Positions 1,589-20,310 of a stretch of 20,310 bases of DNA are shown one piece after another. The position numbers were made by a program, and so were the translations under genes. The notes under the pieces are model-generated. The model made no database searches. It was not told where the DNA came from and saw only the letters and a program-made list of their open reading frames with translations. How positions within the stretch are numbered: the stretch's first letter is position 1; every line of letters begins with the position of its first letter. This DNA comes from a virus: positions 1 to 20,310 of the IMG/VR virus record IMGVR_UViG_3300042448_000298; one strand, written 5' to 3'.

Positions 1589-2309
1589 ATTTTAATGATG
1601 TTTTTCTTTTACATTTTCCAGCCATATATTTATACATTGTTCTTGGATTCAAACAATGAGAAAAAGCCGCTTCAGTAGATGAATTGTAATATATTCCAGT
1701 CTCAGTATTTAATACTAATTTAGATAAATGACAATTCTCTTTCATTTTAATTTTTGATTCTTCAGAATGCTTTCTTCCCTTTTGAGCTTGAGACATTTTT
1801 AATTTTACGCTATCAGGAATTTTCTTTCCTAAATGAGATAATGACATTTTTAATTTTGATTCATCTGAAAGTATCCTTCCGATATTAGATTGTCTTAATT
1901 TTTCTTTATGCTCAGCTGTTCTATTTTTAGCATAAATAGATTTTTTCAATCTATTTTCTTCACTAATATTTTCTTTTCTATTTGATTCAGCAATTTTCCT
2001 TTTAGTTTCTTCTGAATGTTTATACCCTTTAGTCCCTTCTCCTCCATCAGTCATATTTACTAATATTCCCCCATCCTTATTCTTTCTTCCATATAAAGCT
2101 ATAAACTCTATTTCTTTTAATTTAACTTCATCATTATTTAAGTCATCCAAAATTATTTCAACTTTGTATTCAGTTAAATTCACAACATTTTTCCAGTATT
2201 TATTTCTACTATCCGTTTCATTTGCCCTAGAATAATTCTTATCATATCCAATGCCTATATAAAATGGCTCATTTTTATCAAGCCTTATATGTCTATATAC
2301 GTATGCCAT
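1581..2309 (-). CDS. Free-standing GIY-YIG homing endonuclease with NUMOD3 repeats
   Basis: Predicted site-specific DNA endonuclease of 242 aa that spreads by cutting alleles lacking it. The N-terminal nuclease has a GIY-like VYRH at residues 4-7, FYIGIG at 16-21, a likely catalytic Arg near 28 and Glu at 66/68, followed by VNMTDGGEG, typical of phage members. Residues 95-191 hold several NUMOD3-type DNA-binding repeats of the form HSEETKxKI / GKKxxxSxKxKM. The last 45 residues look like a NUMOD1 helix-turn-helix (VLNTETGIYYNSSTEAA). It sits exactly between TerL and portal: its ATG shares one base with the TerL stop (TAATG) and its stop overlaps the portal start (ATGTATAA). The gene is visibly more AT-rich than its neighbours, consistent with recent arrival. 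Confidence 0.92.
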   Translation of the reverse strand: MAYVYRHIRLDKNEPFYIGIGYDKNYSRANETDSRNKYWKNVVNLTEYKVEIILDDLNNDEVKLKEIEFIALYGRKNKDGGILVNMTDGGEGTKGYKHSEETKRKIAESNRKENISEENRLKKSIYAKNRTAEHKEKLRQSNIGRILSDESKLKMSLSHLGKKIPDSVKLKMSQAQKGRKHSEESKIKMKENCHLSKLVLNTETGIYYNSSTEAAFSHCLNPRTMYKYMAGKCKRKTSLKYV

Positions 2310-4516
2310 TATCGAATTATCTGACTACTAGAACCTCTATTGTCATATCTCGCAAAGTTAAGCATAATTTTCGATTTCTTAGGCTCTGTCTTGAACATAT
2401 GTCTCCTTGTTGCCATTATTGCGAGTCCAGAACTAATAGAGGCATCAAATTTAGTTCTGTTGTTAATATCATATCTTGCCCAATCCTCAAGCGTTCTTGT
2501 AAAGTACATGCTTCCAATCTCCTCAGGATCTCTATAAGTCCCCTCTGTATCAAACCCCACATATTGCTCTACATAAGACTCTATACATGACGCATGAGTC
2601 TGCTTTATATCTTCAGATGTATTCGGTATACCTCCTATCTCAATCTCAGTTTTACTTAGTTGAGCTACGTGCTTATCAGGTCTGTTCATCGAGTATCCCC
2701 TGTACCCTCTGTTCTTGAAATGATACAGCATCCTAGCCTTGTTATTCTCCGCTAAGACTGGCATTCCATAAAAAACACATGCCATCAATACTTCTTCGAA
2801 AAATATATCAGCTGTCTGTGGTCTTGCTACATATTCAAGGAAGAACATATTTGATGGAACATCAGGATCTAATGTAGTTCCCGTAAGACCATGCAATGCT
2901 CCGTTAGAACCACCTCCACCAACTACACCTGATATGTCGTACGGGTCACATCCGAATGCGCCAAGCTCATCGTTAGCCGGGCATTTTTTGCCATTTTTGA
3001 TTGTGAACTTATTTCTAAGTCTTTCAGGTGGTAGCCATGAAACAACAAAGCGTCCGTTAGGGTCTGGAGTCCAAACAACCTCAGAGTCTTTTACGCCATT
3101 CTTCCAATGGAAATAGCCTCTAGTCAGAACTCTATCTCTCATCAAAGAGTCATTGTAGTCTATCTGTTGGTATATCTTTGTTAGATTAAATAGTGACTGC
3201 TTTGATTCATCCCTGAATGCGTGAGATTCAGTTCTTGGATACTGACGATAAAATTCGTTCAATGCATCAGAGTCGCTCTTAAGAGCAGATACCTCATTCT
3301 CCCAATATGTGACAGCACCTACTCGTATCTCCCTTCCATCTATACCCATTATTGGTTTTTCAGGATCATCTATAACAGCATGCCCATATTCATCAATAAA
3401 TCCTTCCATATTGTATTCCATCGGAATAAACAAAGAATATAGTCCACTCTTTGTCTGACCGTTAGCATTACGCTTCTTAGGATCTGAATCATAATATAAA
3501 TCTTTGAAGTTCTGTCCACCTTTAGCTAGTGCATTAACAGTAGAACCCATCATACATTTTCCGACGATACGACTACCCAAACGAAGACATGTCTTTGTTA
3601 CACGCCAATTGTTTAAGATGTTGTTTGGGACCAACCATTTTCCACTCTCATCATGCACAAGATTCAATAGCTTCTGTCCATCATATGAGTTGTCCGCAGT
3701 ATTAAGCCAGTCAATTGTTGTATCAAGACCCAAGATTTCGTCAGCATCAGTCTCCGACATGTTCTTCTTGGTAATCTTCTTTGCAGGAACCCTAAACGAT
3801 AACTCTGTCTTAGGATTGTCCATACCATCCTGAATAGGCTTGAAGAAGAATGGATAGTTCCTTACAATAGGAACAACCTTATTGATGAACATCTCCTTGG
3901 CATCGGCTCCTGTCTTTGACAATATACCTAACTTAGCATCCTTAGATATAGTTCCAATATTTGCCGTTTCAGATGACGACATGAACGAGAAACCTGAACG
4001 TCTGTTCTTTAGGTAGCACATACCGAAAGCTCTGTCGTCAGCCTTGCATGCCTCCCAAAATATAAAGAATATCCTATTTGACTCACGGAAGTCAGGAAGA
4101 CCTACATCTATCTTAGACCACTGCAGATACATATAATGACTACCTGTGATATAAGTAGCCACTCCTTTATTAATAAACCAATGGCCGTTTTCTCTGTTCT
4201 CAAACTCTGACTGTATGTAGTCAACCCACTTTACCTTAAACTCATTAGATTTAGCATTCCATTCGAATATGCTCTTTATCCTTGACAGCTCCTGTGGATA
4301 TTCTTTTGGAACCCACCTATCCTCTCCTTTTGGAATACCAATTTTTGGTACTCTAGGAAGGCCAACCTTTAGTCCGTTGATATCGTATACATCACCTAAT
4401 GTTCCGTCCTTAGATATGACTACTACATCATATTTTTCATCATAGCCGTACTTCCACTCCTTACTATGTTTTACAGAGTTAGATATGTAGTCAGGAAGTA
4501 TGCTATATAAACTCAT
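2309..4516 (-). CDS. Terminase large subunit (TerL), ATPase-nuclease
   Basis: The packaging motor of 735 aa, which pumps DNA into the prohead through the portal and cuts the concatemer. An ATPase domain comes first: a divergent Walker A (LKNRRSGFS, residues 169-177, lacking the usual GKT/S), a Walker B ending in LVHDE (286-290) and a likely coupling motif GKCMMGST (319-326). The RNase H-like nuclease follows, with plausible acidic residues at D524 (GCDPYD), E590 (VLAENNK) and D691 (KFDASISSG). The arginine-rich Walker A variant and the length fit what I recall of crAss-like terminases. Its start overlaps the upstream gene by four bases (ATGA), and its stop overlaps the homing endonuclease start. 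Confidence 0.93.
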   Translation of the reverse strand: MSLYSILPDYISNSVKHSKEWKYGYDEKYDVVVISKDGTLGDVYDINGLKVGLPRVPKIGIPKGEDRWVPKEYPQELSRIKSIFEWNAKSNEFKVKWVDYIQSEFENRENGHWFINKGVATYITGSHYMYLQWSKIDVGLPDFRESNRIFFIFWEACKADDRAFGMCYLKNRRSGFSFMSSSETANIGTISKDAKLGILSKTGADAKEMFINKVVPIVRNYPFFFKPIQDGMDNPKTELSFRVPAKKITKKNMSETDADEILGLDTTIDWLNTADNSYDGQKLLNLVHDESGKWLVPNNILNNWRVTKTCLRLGSRIVGKCMMGSTVNALAKGGQNFKDLYYDSDPKKRNANGQTKSGLYSLFIPMEYNMEGFIDEYGHAVIDDPEKPIMGIDGREIRVGAVTYWENEVSALKSDSDALNEFYRQYPRTESHAFRDESKQSLFNLTKIYQQIDYNDSLMRDRVLTRGYFHWKNGVKDSEVVWTPDPNGRFVVSWLPPERLRNKFTIKNGKKCPANDELGAFGCDPYDISGVVGGGGSNGALHGLTGTTLDPDVPSNMFFLEYVARPQTADIFFEEVLMACVFYGMPVLAENNKARMLYHFKNRGYRGYSMNRPDKHVAQLSKTEIEIGGIPNTSEDIKQTHASCIESYVEQYVGFDTEGTYRDPEEIGSMYFTRTLEDWARYDINNRTKFDASISSGLAIMATRRHMFKTEPKKSKIMLNFARYDNRGSSSQIIR

Positions 4517-7429: not shown

Positions 7430-8208
7430 GCTCTTGTTCCTATGATGGTAACTTTCAAACCTTTGGCTGTTCCATCACCTATCTGATCAATGTCAATAGT
7501 TATCTCAGCATCATCTGCCAGTGCAGTGTCAGATACAACCGCTGGTGTTGCCGCCGTTGTAGATGTCTTTTCAGTATTGTCAATTGTTAGCTTTGTTGAT
7601 AGTATAGTTGTACCACCTTCATTGATGTCAACAGTGAAGATACTACCTGATGCTTGAGCAGTTGAAAGAGATGCACGAACGGCAGTAACTGTCATTGCAT
7701 AAGGCATTCTGAAAGTAACCTTTGCAGTACCTGTAGTAAGTGCAGTAGTTTCATCTGATGCAGCCACCTGGATCTCAGTAGGTAACGATGCCCAATTAGT
7801 TACTCCAGATCCAGAGTTTGTTAAAAATTGACCAGCAGAACCTACAAATCCAGGGAAAACAAAAGATGTAGTTTGAGCCATAAATTGAGGAGCTCTTAGC
7901 TGAACATAATCTGAACCAGCATCAAAGTCTTCATAAAGTTTTATGGAACCAGAATTTGTAGTGCCTTGATTAAATACAACTTCACCTCCGCTAAATGTAA
8001 GTGATCTTCCAGACATTGTAACAATCCTGTTCGCGTCTAACGTACCGTCACTGTTATATATATTAGTATCAGCTGCTGAAGCCTCTGCTATAATATCGTC
8101 AATAGTATATGTTTCCTGATAGCTATTGCTTAGAGATGATCTATTCTCTGGAGTTGGAACATCTGGTGAAATACCAATAAACTTGGTTCCTGAAGGAATT
8201 GCTGGCAT
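7426..8208 (-). CDS. Fibre-type virion protein
   Basis: A 260-aa protein. The N-terminal part (IPSGTKFIGISPDVPTPENR) and the middle section GSAGQFLTNSGSGVTNWASL are typical of phage fibre linkers. The C-terminal ~115 residues, beginning EIQVAASDETTALTTGTAKV and ending LKVTIIGTRA, form a beta-rich domain widely seen in phage virion proteins. It is first in the fibre transcription unit, behind a TATCTTTG box and a 16-base leader, and overlaps the next fibre gene by four bases. The exact place in the virion is unknown. Confidence 0.8.
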   Translation of the reverse strand: MPAIPSGTKFIGISPDVPTPENRSSLSNSYQETYTIDDIIAEASAADTNIYNSDGTLDANRIVTMSGRSLTFSGGEVVFNQGTTNSGSIKLYEDFDAGSDYVQLRAPQFMAQTTSFVFPGFVGSAGQFLTNSGSGVTNWASLPTEIQVAASDETTALTTGTAKVTFRMPYAMTVTAVRASLSTAQASGSIFTVDINEGGTTILSTKLTIDNTEKTSTTAATPAVVSDTALADDAEITIDIDQIGDGTAKGLKVTIIGTRA

Positions 8209-16220: not shown

Positions 16221-16478
16221 CTATAGTACTGCTACAACGTCTCTTTCCTGAACAATGGTAAGCATCTCTCCGTCAATCTTTACGTCGAACGCATGCACCT
16301 TGTCAAAGAAAATACTATCTCCCTCCTTGATATGCTCGACAAGTGTACCAGGAGTCACAACGACTCCTATCTGGTACCTCATCTCTGACTCCTCAGCCTT
16401 AGACATAAGAAGACCACCGCTAGTCTTCACCTCCTCGTTAGATCTCTTGATCAGCAAATATTTATTTATTGCCCTCAT
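16221..16478 (-). CDS. groES: Phage co-chaperonin GroES (Cpn10)
   Basis: An 85-aa lid protein for the GroEL chamber, slightly short of the ~95 aa of bacterial GroES. It has the N-terminal strand INKYLLIKRS, a mobile loop at about residues 15-34 (EEVKTSGGLLMSKAEESEMR) with LLM where GroES has its GroEL-contacting hydrophobic triplet, then YQIGVVVTPG, the roof/hairpin region, KEGDSIFF and a final IVQERDVVAVL. All landmarks of a working co-chaperonin are present. Its start lies inside the end of groEL (17-base overlap), so the order is groEL then groES, the reverse of the usual bacterial operon. Confidence 0.93.
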   Translation of the reverse strand: MRAINKYLLIKRSNEEVKTSGGLLMSKAEESEMRYQIGVVVTPGTLVEHIKEGDSIFFDKVHAFDVKIDGEMLTIVQERDVVAVL

Positions 16479-18054
16479 CTTGTCTCATATTAGTTATAAC
16501 AACCTCTGTTGATAGTATAGTAGTGGCTACAGATACAGCGTTCTTAAGTGCACTCTTCGTTACCTTAGACGGATCTATCACTCCCATCTTCATCATGTCT
16601 CCATACTTGTCGTTCTTAACGTCATACCCAAACCCATCTGTATCCTTATCTATGATGGGCTGAGCCACACTAACCTTATCTAGCCCTGCATTCTCAACAA
16701 TGCGACTGAAAGGAGCCGTAAGTGCTGTCTTCATAATGTCAACAGCTGCCTGATAGTTGATATCCTCAGCGTTGTCTTTGATACGTTGCGACGCATTGAT
16801 AAGAGCGATACCACCTCCAGGAAGTATACCCTCCTCGATAGCTGCAGCTACAGCTCGCACCGCATCGTCAACCCTATCATACTTCTCCTTCTGCTCGATG
16901 TCTGAATTGGCTCCTACATAGATAACGCCAACCCCTCCGTCGATATTGGCAATACGCTCCTGCAAGAACTCTCGCTCATACTGTATCTTAGCCTCAGAAT
17001 GCTTGTTCTTAAGAGTCTCAAGATGGTCATTGATATCACTCTCCTCAATACTATCATGTCTCATGATGATAGTCCTGTCTTTAGATACTACAACCTTGGC
17101 AGCTCTTCCTAGCCCATCGAAGTCAATAAGTGACAAATCGTCACCTGTTGCATCTGAATACAACCTTGCTCCCAAAACGATAGACAGGTCTTTCAACAGA
17201 TCAGCCTTACGCCATCCCATGCTTGGAGGCTGTATATGGCATGCCTTAATATTTCTCTTAGCAACATTCAAATTTAACGCGTTTAACGCGTTCGCGCTCA
17301 AATTTCCAATAATAAGTATAGGCCGCCCCTGCTTAATGACTGGCATCAGAGCGTTCTCTATAGACTGCAAGTTGTTTATCTCTACATCAGATAGCAATAC
17401 ATACGGATTGTCCAACACGCACTCCTCAGTCTCCTCATTTGTGACAAAATACTTGCTCGACCAACCCCTGTCGATCTTCATCCCGTGAATAATGTCGATA
17501 TACGTCACCGGAGTAGCTGAGTTCTCCACAGTAACAACATTAACCTGCTTGAATGCATCAGCAATAAGGTCACCAAGCTCCTTGTCGTTGTTTGCCGAGA
17601 TAGCGGCAACGTCATTCAGCAACTTCTTGCTTACCTTCTTCGACAACTTCTTGTCCAAAAACTCAATAATGCTGTCAGTGATCTTGTTCATGTGACGAAT
17701 AACCTCCGTCCTGTTGTGCTCCTCCTCGATATACTCGTCCGCAGCATCTATCAACGCCTCCGTCAGTACAACGCTAGTTGTCGTTCCATCGCCAGCAACT
17801 GTAGATGTCCTGTCAGATGCCTGTCTTACCAGCTGAACAGCTAAGTTCTCCACCGGATCGAACAGATTTATAGTCCTTGCGACAGTTATTCCGTCCTTCG
17901 TGACAGTAATACCACCTACATGATGCTCTGACTCCAATAAAACTGTGTTTCCTCGCGGACCTAACGTACTTCCTACCGCCTTTGCAATCTTATGAATGCC
18001 ATTCCTTAACTTATTTTGACCTTGTTGATCAAAAAATAACTGTTTTACTATCAT
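16462..18054 (-). CDS. groEL: Phage chaperonin GroEL (Cpn60)
   Basis: A 530-aa ATP-dependent folding chamber, nearly full length compared with ~545 aa in bacteria. Nucleotide-site motifs are intact: GPRG (32-35), TKDG (52-55), GDGTTT (88-93), the catalytic Asp in RVDDA (D397, matching E. coli D398), GGG (413-415) and IDPSKVTKSAL with D494. The hinge HGMKIDRG and IDGGVGVIYVGA are kept. The apical domain has diverged most: DRGWSSKYF replaces the DRGYLSPYF of E. coli, while the hydrophobic helix NALNALNLNVAKRN is kept. The C-terminus ends TNMRQDEGNK without the Gly-Met tail. It probably folds phage capsid or fibre proteins with the co-encoded GroES. A weak promoter-like TAAATTCG lies 18 bases upstream. 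Confidence 0.97.
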   Translation of the reverse strand: MIVKQLFFDQQGQNKLRNGIHKIAKAVGSTLGPRGNTVLLESEHHVGGITVTKDGITVARTINLFDPVENLAVQLVRQASDRTSTVAGDGTTTSVVLTEALIDAADEYIEEEHNRTEVIRHMNKITDSIIEFLDKKLSKKVSKKLLNDVAAISANNDKELGDLIADAFKQVNVVTVENSATPVTYIDIIHGMKIDRGWSSKYFVTNEETEECVLDNPYVLLSDVEINNLQSIENALMPVIKQGRPILIIGNLSANALNALNLNVAKRNIKACHIQPPSMGWRKADLLKDLSIVLGARLYSDATGDDLSLIDFDGLGRAAKVVVSKDRTIIMRHDSIEESDINDHLETLKNKHSEAKIQYEREFLQERIANIDGGVGVIYVGANSDIEQKEKYDRVDDAVRAVAAAIEEGILPGGGIALINASQRIKDNAEDINYQAAVDIMKTALTAPFSRIVENAGLDKVSVAQPIIDKDTDGFGYDVKNDKYGDMMKMGVIDPSKVTKSALKNAVSVATTILSTEVVITNMRQDEGNK

Positions 18055-19114: not shown

Positions 19115-19303
19115 TTATTTATAACGCTTCACCTCTTTAGATCTTCCGATAACAGATCCAGGTGTGCCTTTAGTTTTTACTACAGTCTTCTTTACAAGTC
19201 CGCCCTTGCCATAAACAGTCTTCTTCTTCTGCATAGCTCCGTACTCCTTCCCGTCTACCTCCATGGTGACAGATTGCTTCTTAGTCTTAACTACTTTTCT
19301 CAT
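19115..19303 (-). CDS. Small basic protein
   Basis: A 62-aa Lys-rich protein (MRKVVKTKKQSVTMEVDGKE, then YGKGGLVKKTVVKTKGTPGS), probably beta-stranded. The 'YGKGGxVKK' stretch is common in small basic proteins of Bacteroidota phages; function unknown. It is the first gene of its unit, and a TACATTTG box ends four bases before the ATG. Confidence 0.74.
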   Translation of the reverse strand: MRKVVKTKKQSVTMEVDGKEYGAMQKKKTVYGKGGLVKKTVVKTKGTPGSVIGRSKEVKRYK

Positions 19304-19307
19304 GATG

Positions 19308-19315
19308 CAAATGTA
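19308..19315 (-). promoter_or_regulatory. Promoter box TACATTTG, four bases before ATG
   Basis: Minus strand TACATTTG, then CATC, then the ATG at 19303. It fits the Bacteroidota -7 consensus TAnnTTTG. Confidence 0.62.
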
Positions 19316-19352: not shown

Positions 19353-19468
19353 TGACGGATAAAATGCTCATTTCCAAGTACATTGACGGAACGCTGACGG
19401 ATTCCTGACGGTTTGAAAATTGTAACTCGCTCATTATGAGCAATCTTGACGGTTTGACGAATTGACCC
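19353..19468 (+). repeat. Left array of TGACGG repeats
   Basis: TGACGG occurs at 19353, 19384, 19395, 19406 and 19447, with degenerate copies TGACGA at 19455 and TGACCC at 19463. Neighbouring starts are 11 bases apart for 19384/19395/19406 and 8 bases apart for 19447/19455/19463. All point the same way, toward the AT-rich core on their right. The pattern suggests binding sites for a repeat-recognising protein. Confidence 0.75.
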
Positions 19469-19559
19469 CTACTTATTTTATATATTTATATATTTTGCCT
19501 ATTTACCTATTCTATTTAACATAATATTTCTTTTTTTCTACGATTTCAATAGAACTTTT
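19469..19559. other. AT-rich core between opposed repeat arrays
   Basis: About 90 bases made almost only of A and T (TTTTATATATTTATATATTT and a poly-T run near 19530), with no gene. It lies between inverted TGACGG and CCGTCA arrays, as a DNA-unwinding element would in a replication origin. No gene overlaps it. Confidence 0.5.
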
Positions 19560-19635
19560 CCGTCAAACCGTCAATGTTGTTGATTATCAGCACTTTAACC
19601 GTCAATAAACCGTCAGGATTTAAAAAGTTTCGTCA
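19560..19635 (-). repeat. Right array of CCGTCA repeats (TGACGG on the minus strand)
   Basis: CCGTCA occurs at 19560, 19568, 19599 and 19610, with TCGTCA at 19630. Spacings are 8 bases for the inner pair and 11 for the outer pair, mirroring the left array. Further single copies, GCGTCA at 19661 and TCGTCA at 19731, fall at the end of and inside the 45-aa gene. Confidence 0.75.
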
Positions 19636-19652
19636 AGATTGTTGATTATCAG
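19569..19652 (+). repeat. 22-bp direct repeat ending TTGTTGATTATCAG, two copies
   Basis: CGTCAA-NN-TTGTTGATTATCAG occurs at 19569-19590 and 19631-19652, 62 bases apart, differing only at two bases. Each contains the palindrome TGATTATCA. A shorter copy, TGATTATCAG, lies at 20300-20309, at the very end of the window. Confidence 0.8.
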
Positions 19653-19663
19653 TTAGTTATGCG

Positions 19664-19801
19664 TCAGCCAACTAAAAATATAATTTTAATAATTAGCAAG
19701 TTCAAATGAAACTCGTAATATGGATCCCAGTCGTCAGGATCGTAGTACTCAAAACCGACATTCAAACCTGTCGGTATCATGTTGTGTATCTCTATAGTCA
19801 T
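19664..19801 (-). CDS. Very small hypothetical protein
   Basis: A 45-aa protein: MTIEIHNMIPTGLNVGFEYY, then DPDDWDPYYEFHLNLLIIKI and IFLVG. Acidic and aromatic with a hydrophobic strand at the end; short proteins ending 'YxEFxxNLLxxxxxF' occur in Bacteroidota phages and their hosts, without known function. Support comes mainly from the TAACTTTG box that ends four bases before the ATG. The stop lies within a GCGTCA copy, so the gene abuts the repeat array. Confidence 0.62.
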   Translation of the reverse strand: MTIEIHNMIPTGLNVGFEYYDPDDWDPYYEFHLNLLIIKIIFLVG

Positions 19802-19805
19802 ACCA

Positions 19806-19813
19806 CAAAGTTA
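19806..19813 (-). promoter_or_regulatory. Promoter box TAACTTTG, four bases before ATG
   Basis: Minus strand TAACTTTG, then TGGT, then the ATG at 19801, the same layout as the promoters at 6317, 9933, 15910 and 19308. Confidence 0.58.
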
Positions 19814-19819
19814 GGAATT

Positions 19820-20310
19820 TTGGCTGCACGTGCGGAGGGTTTACATAATATACCCATATTGCGTCAACGACCGTCGAACCGAAACGACTTGAAATCGCGA
19901 CGGGGGGTATTGCTTTTCAGACTTTCGGTCGGACTTTTTAGCTTTTTTGTACGGGCATGTAGGTAGGTAGGCCTGTGGGTATGTTGCACGACCTACCGCT
20001 AGGTCTACATGTCGCGCGCTAGGTATGTGTGTATGCATGTGTATGTGAGCGCCTGTGTGTACGCACGTATGTACGCATGCACGCACGCTCGCCCAGTCGC
20101 ACGCACGTGAGATCCTATGCACTGCATAGCAATTGTTATGCACGCACAGTATGTAGTCCGTTCGGCCGAATTTCCGCCCGTTCGTTTGTCGCATTCGCAT
20201 ACCTTCAGACGAAGAATAACCCCACCCACCTTACGCCCTACCTCTAAACCCATTTAACGCACTCACATACGCGCACACGCGTAGGGAGGTCTAACTATCT
20301 GATTATCAGT
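19820..20310. other. GC-richer, purine/pyrimidine-alternating stretch without a credible gene
   Basis: About 490 bases to the window edge with composition unlike the AT-rich phage genes. 20020-20090 alternates purine and pyrimidine over long runs (TATGTGTGTATGCATGTGTA; TACGCACGTATGTACGCATG), the kind of sequence that can adopt Z-DNA. Short dyads are present: ACGCG/CGCGT at 20269-20282 and ACCTA/TAGGT near 20000. The frames open here give low-complexity Cys/His/Val or Arg-rich translations and lack the promoter box. I recognise no RNA gene. Confidence 0.5.
20123..20142. repeat. 20-base near-perfect palindrome
   Basis: TGCATAGCAATTGTTATGCA is symmetric around CAATTG, with one non-matching pair (G/T). 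It lies within the GC-richer non-coding stretch and may be a protein-binding site or hairpin. Confidence 0.55.

Follow-up and report, generated by a model that had tools for sequence, protein, structure and literature searches.

The array of short, oppositely oriented repeats at positions 19353–19666 probably is an iteron-type replication origin that is bound by the phage primase-helicase in the manner of P4 alpha, SaPI Rep and Cch2, with two such sites in each genome. At the sequence level this assignment is supported by the array itself, its symmetry, helical phasing and conservation, by a matched second array, and by a primase-helicase in relatives of at least 45 kb. The identity of the binding protein, melting of the core and origin activity are what we infer. 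A short-repeat origin in a primase-helicase replicon is of a kind already known, and a search of the open-licence literature found no description of the mirrored, two-site form with co-changing boxes.

The window, that is the whole stretch of DNA that was analyzed, corresponds to an entire IMG/VR record (20,310 bases) and constitutes a linear fragment. The source phage is a GroEL-encoding Bacteroidetes podovirus, represented here by 20.3 kb. Every gene that was recognized in family searches of the window lies on the minus strand: portal (2–1588), a NUMOD3 homing endonuclease (1581–2309) placed between the portal and terminase genes, terminase (2309–4516), GroEL (16462–18054), endolysin and GroES. 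Podoviridae sp. ctfjg026, a circular record of 60,850 bases (MW202828.1), encodes a terminase with 68% identity to that of the window, and the terminases of Flavobacterium and Cellulophaga phages showed lower identity. An Rfam search of the window and of the contigs L007, L004 and L010 returned no match, and a tRNA search of the window was empty. The array is located just upstream of the first open reading frame (ORF) of the leftward late (structural) operon, which specifies 62 amino acids (19115–19303, minus strand). For a 180-amino-acid protein that adjoins the array, a search of viral contigs yielded no relatives. A small ORF of 45 amino acids (MTIEIHNMIPTGLNVGFEYY...; 19664–19801, minus strand) is preceded by a −7 element and is conserved in L007, and its stop codon overlaps the final CGTCA box of the array.

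Six rightward TGACGR boxes and six leftward CGTCA boxes flank an AT-rich core. Exact copies of TGACGG are positioned at 19353, 19384, 19395, 19406 and 19447 on the plus strand and at 19560, 19568, 19599 and 19610 on the minus strand. The orientation is split strictly, with all plus-strand copies to the left of the core and all minus-strand copies to the right, which confirms the arrangement of TGACGG and its complement described in the initial annotation. Degenerate boxes are TGACGA at 19455 and CGTCA at 19631 and 19662. The left arm comprises an outer group of four plus-strand TGACGG copies with spacings of 31, 11 and 11 bases (19353–19411), a spacer (19412–19446) that includes the imperfect palindrome GCTCATTATGAGC at 19429–19441, and the plus-strand inner pair TGACGGttTGACGA with boxes 8 bases apart (19447–19460). 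The core (19468–19557) is a candidate unwinding element and holds the most AT-rich 60-mer of the window (19470–19529; 87% AT). On its right follow the minus-strand inner pair CCGTCAaaCCGTCA, 8 bases apart (19560–19573), a spacer with the palindrome TTGATTATCAG (19574–19598), the minus-strand outer pair CCGTCAataaaCCGTCA, 11 bases apart (19599–19615), and a distal segment (19630–19666, minus strand) with TCGTCA at 19630, CGTCA at 19662 and a second TTGATTATCAG spacer; conservation here is strong in L007 (39 of 43 bases). The spacer element is inverted between the arms, appearing as GCTCATTATGAGC on the left and twice as TTGATTATCAG on the right. As in iteron-type origins, several short direct repeats are situated beside an AT-rich region.

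The anatomy refines other elements of the earlier description. The mirrored spacings hold for the outer boxes (11 and 11 on the left, 11 on the right) and for the inner boxes (8 and 8), although the left inner pair combines TGACGG with TGACGA. The core that had been described as AT-only contains 24 bases of pure A/T (19473–19496), but as a whole is AT-rich. Moreover, the array does occupy the interval 19353–19635 that first was assigned to it, but the element runs on to about 19666. The exact consensus for IHF is absent from the window, and was found in eight of 21 arrays compared to 1.0 expected; IHF sites in the spacers are noted as a resemblance.

The window contains 18 copies of TGACGG, nine of which fall within 263 bases (whole-window shuffles: mean 4.1, maximum 10). 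The other nine are dispersed as isolated copies, each of them on the minus (coding) strand, so that the proposed check for clustering bore out a concentration of boxes at the array. When all hexamers were searched, the array locus ranked first in the window with 5 + 4 copies, the runner-up having 2 + 3. Short hexamers recur, as the nine scattered copies illustrate, and the array might on that account be viewed as a product of chance or of base composition. This explanation has almost no probability: none of 200 dinucleotide-preserving shuffles of the window produced three or more copies per arm, in agreement with the earlier judgment that the symmetry exceeds chance, and the architecture is conserved across many relatives. 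In a scan across the collection, three TGACGG copies at 11-base spacing were detected in 63 contigs that appear unrelated.

Relatives were gathered through GroEL matches in viral contigs, and then were oriented and read. In L007, whose GroEL is 86% identical, the array recurs together with the AT core, its boxes being TGACGA. Arrays with TATGTTG boxes were identified in L010/G003, and with ATGTCG boxes in L016/L017. The detector for all hexamers recovered, among others, ATGTTG in G003 at 35745 (4 + 5) and at 29670 (3 + 4), and GTGACG in L047 and L048 (5 + 3 and 5 + 4). Thus, the box varies among relatives in three classes, TGACGR, TGTCGR and TGTTGR, while the design is constant. Alignment by eye revealed a common plan in which outer boxes 10–12 bases apart are followed by a spacer that often includes TGATAATCA, an inner pair 7–9 bases apart, the AT core, and then the mirror-image arm in complete or reduced form. 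The anticipated conservation of spacing and symmetry therefore was found even where the box sequence differs. Spacings of at least 10 bases between boxes of the same orientation in 13 arrays, including that of the window, gave a best period of 10.5 bases with R = 0.79, a value reached by none of 2000 random sets, the arrays being from related phages and so not independent. When adjacent spacings were omitted, R was 0.70, still at 10.5. Helical phasing of this type is characteristic of iteron-type origins. No such array was present in the negative controls Elemovirus and Cellulophaga phi38:1, which have other replication proteins.

A second array with a matching box class was found in most of the near-complete relatives and in the closest fragment to the window. 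The window itself stops short of the early genes, so that its own initiator gene and second array would lie outside it. The second array immediately precedes the gene for the primase-helicase in six cases (G011, G012, G022, G023, G025 and MW202828), and occupies another part of the early region in G003 (29564–29766) and, as one arm, in G007 (577–700). In G001, the nearest relative of the window with early genes, a mirrored second array occupies 7829–8092 in the early region away from the primase-helicase gene. Weaker cases are G009, G010, G024 and G026, in which each of the two sites holds a few boxes of the matching class. Neither array was recognized in G006 or G008. MW202828.1 has arrays at both sites and resembles the window in a correspondingly placed tract of alternating purines and pyrimidines, but differs in its TGTCGR boxes and in a first array that is mostly single-armed.

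Wherever both arrays were seen in one genome, they always shared the box class. Mapped on the primase tree, the box class requires about seven changes, with at least two separate appearances of TGACG. As two unlinked arrays change box together, a single trans-acting protein is indicated, and the second array of the same class in relatives suggests that the replicator probably has two cis sites. Satellite phage P4 also depends on a pair of cis regions, ori1 and crr, with several kb between them. In several of the relatives, two distant arrays built from one class of repeat were found, an arrangement like that of replicons of the P4 alpha type.

The array sits just upstream of the late operon, and regulation of that operon therefore is a natural alternative: a phage regulator would switch the leftward late operon by way of the array and the primase gene by way of the second array. 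The first late ORF lies immediately downstream of the array, the array ends 86–221 bases ahead of GroEL in several relatives, and the second array often is just before the primase-helicase ORF. Furthermore, the first late ORF is closely preceded by TACATTTG (19308–19315, minus strand), a match to the Bacteroidetes −7 element TAnnTTTG that is separated from the first box by 38 bases. This element lacks TTG at the −33 position, an arrangement to be expected where a promoter needs an activator. However, no complete TTG-N-TAnnTTTG promoter was found within the array or its core, or beside them, where only the −7 elements at 19308–19315 and 19806–19813 were detected. A simple operator would not need mirror symmetry about the AT maximum, inner pairs or such long phased arms, and no boxes were seen at other operons. 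In addition, the second array of G012, G022 and G023 stops ~20 bases or less from the primase start codon which leaves little space for a promoter. Control of transcription as the function of the array accordingly is considered unlikely, albeit the main competitor. Activation of the late promoter by the box-bound protein may be viewed as a rival or as a second role of the array, and it is possible that both roles apply.

In nearly all of 14 relatives, GC skew was negative on one side of the array and positive on the other; in MW202828 it was near zero on one side. The turning point was ~0.1–3.2 kb from the array in all 14. The turn in skew that was predicted for an origin therefore is present, but it is confounded by divergent transcription: the early and late blocks both are transcribed away from the array, and the skew is not decisive. 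The array alternatively might be a site for partition, segregation or packaging (pac) that is bound by a ParB-like protein or by terminase. Phased arrays with palindromic spacers can act as centromeres, and an unusual alternating purine-pyrimidine tract is 300–700 bases away. Nevertheless, the terminase genes (2309–4516) are about 15 kb from the array, the association that was observed is with the primase-helicase, and no partition gene was found among the proteins scanned, which together make this assignment very improbable. The origin assignment was strengthened by the tests that had been proposed for its refutation, in support of the iteron-like origin that the initial annotation had envisaged.

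The candidate initiator is a protein of family phrog_28855 that is encoded by all searched relative records of at least 45 kb. In the relatives it possesses BT4734-like_N, PriCT_1 and DUF5906 (P-loop) domains and the conserved Walker-type motifs GGTGKG, FDD and ITTN. The C-terminal domain is predicted to be a winged helix; the fold was modeled from an alignment without the MW202828 protein, and the full-length model was too poor in the helicase part. A VIA-align comparison matched the modeled domain with the origin-binding domain of P4 (1KA8; Z 4.6, rmsd 3.4, 73 residues), tied with many winged helices. As the fold is common and many matches are tied, this result supports the fold but is not specific to P4. 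A Foldseek search with the C-terminal domain gave nothing below E 0.1, and a profile search of the primase alignment against PDB sequences gave no real relative.

By an unbiased count of k-mers, the region upstream of the primase gene was enriched at the 5% level in 11 of 51 relatives, with ~2.5 expected, these relatives being kin and not independent samples. Adjacency of array and primase gene thus is common, but is not a rule. Distant relatives of the primase in bacterial assemblies, outside the phage group, also have upstream repeat arrays with other boxes: GTGTTG in L243 (a Tenacibaculum contig), TGACG in L228 and a mirrored TTGGAC in L230.

SCCmec Cch2, of the D5/Primase_Cterm kind, and SaPI Rep are self-loading helicases whose C-terminal domain binds short iterons beside their own gene, SaPI Rep apparently as two hexamers (PMC7581432). 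Similarly, the phage arrays of 5–6 base boxes adjoin the primase-helicase gene in several relatives. In contrast to the iterons of Cch2 and SaPI Rep, the phage boxes are disposed as a pair of mirror-image arms, with closely set inner boxes, about an AT core, the second array precedes the gene instead of following it, and a further matched array is present at the late operon. P4 alpha combines primase and helicase in one protein whose winged helix binds the origin repeats, after which it unwinds and primes (PMC4234260). In the phage protein, primase and P-loop helicase domains occur with a predicted C-terminal winged helix. The P4 alpha primase is Toprim-type (PMC4234260), whereas the phage protein is of the BT4734-like/PriCT_1 type. 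The box sequences of P4 also appear to differ from those of the phage array. SV40 large T antigen assembles two helicase hexamers head to head on short, oppositely oriented pentanucleotides (PMC3401641). The phage array shares short boxes in opposite orientations with the SV40 core origin, but comprises 11–12 sites compared to four in that unrelated virus, which uses an N-terminal origin-binding domain.

In the proposed mechanism, a phage-encoded initiator, most likely the primase-helicase, would occupy the TGACGR boxes of the opposed arms, which are in helical phase. Two helicase rings, positioned by the tight inner pairs, would face each other head to head at the AT-rich core, which then would melt, and replication forks would depart bidirectionally into the divergent blocks of early and late genes. 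The anatomy of the array fits with such head-to-head loading of two rings. A more elaborate proposal is a bipartite replicator in which two distant mirrored arrays each receive head-to-head rings, the box changes repeatedly with both arrays and the protein in step, and the array at the late operon also couples replication to late transcription. This version is advanced tentatively, as a possibility that falls well short of probable. The array provides a sequence-defined candidate origin for widespread uncultured Bacteroidetes phages, for which no described origin was found in the open-licence literature. The matched variants of protein and box form a natural series with which recognition and opening of origins by such primase-helicases can be studied, and the concerted change of two distant arrays per genome is a marker for initiator-origin pairs in metagenomes.

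Other features were noted in the vicinity. An alternating purine-pyrimidine, C+G-rich tract of the ACGCACGTATGTACGC type (19955–20150) adjoins the array and could favor Z-DNA. Tracts of this type also were found in G001, G003 (35246), G007 (57048) and MW202828 (43000), with the strongest alternation in each record, and have no counterpart in G009, G010 and G011. In L007 a different homing-type gene lies between the array and the tract. Just ahead of the tract, a conserved element GAAACGACTT...GGGGGGT...TTTTTGGCTTTTT (19885–19950) is recognizable in L007, L010, L016, L017 and L018, even without a visible array. A third copy of TGATTATCAGT occupies the very end of the record (20300–20310), which is not a genome end because L007 runs on past the same sequence. 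The reverse complement of L007 includes, ~3960–3990 upstream of GroEL, a hammerhead-like CTGATGAGTCCAAAAGGACGAAA that has no Rfam match at the gathering score and that probably is part of a structured leader downstream of an early promoter. In MW202828.1, the palindrome GTCGTTAACGAC recurs ~14 times across the early region (43747–55161), resembling a dispersed operator or early-promoter element.
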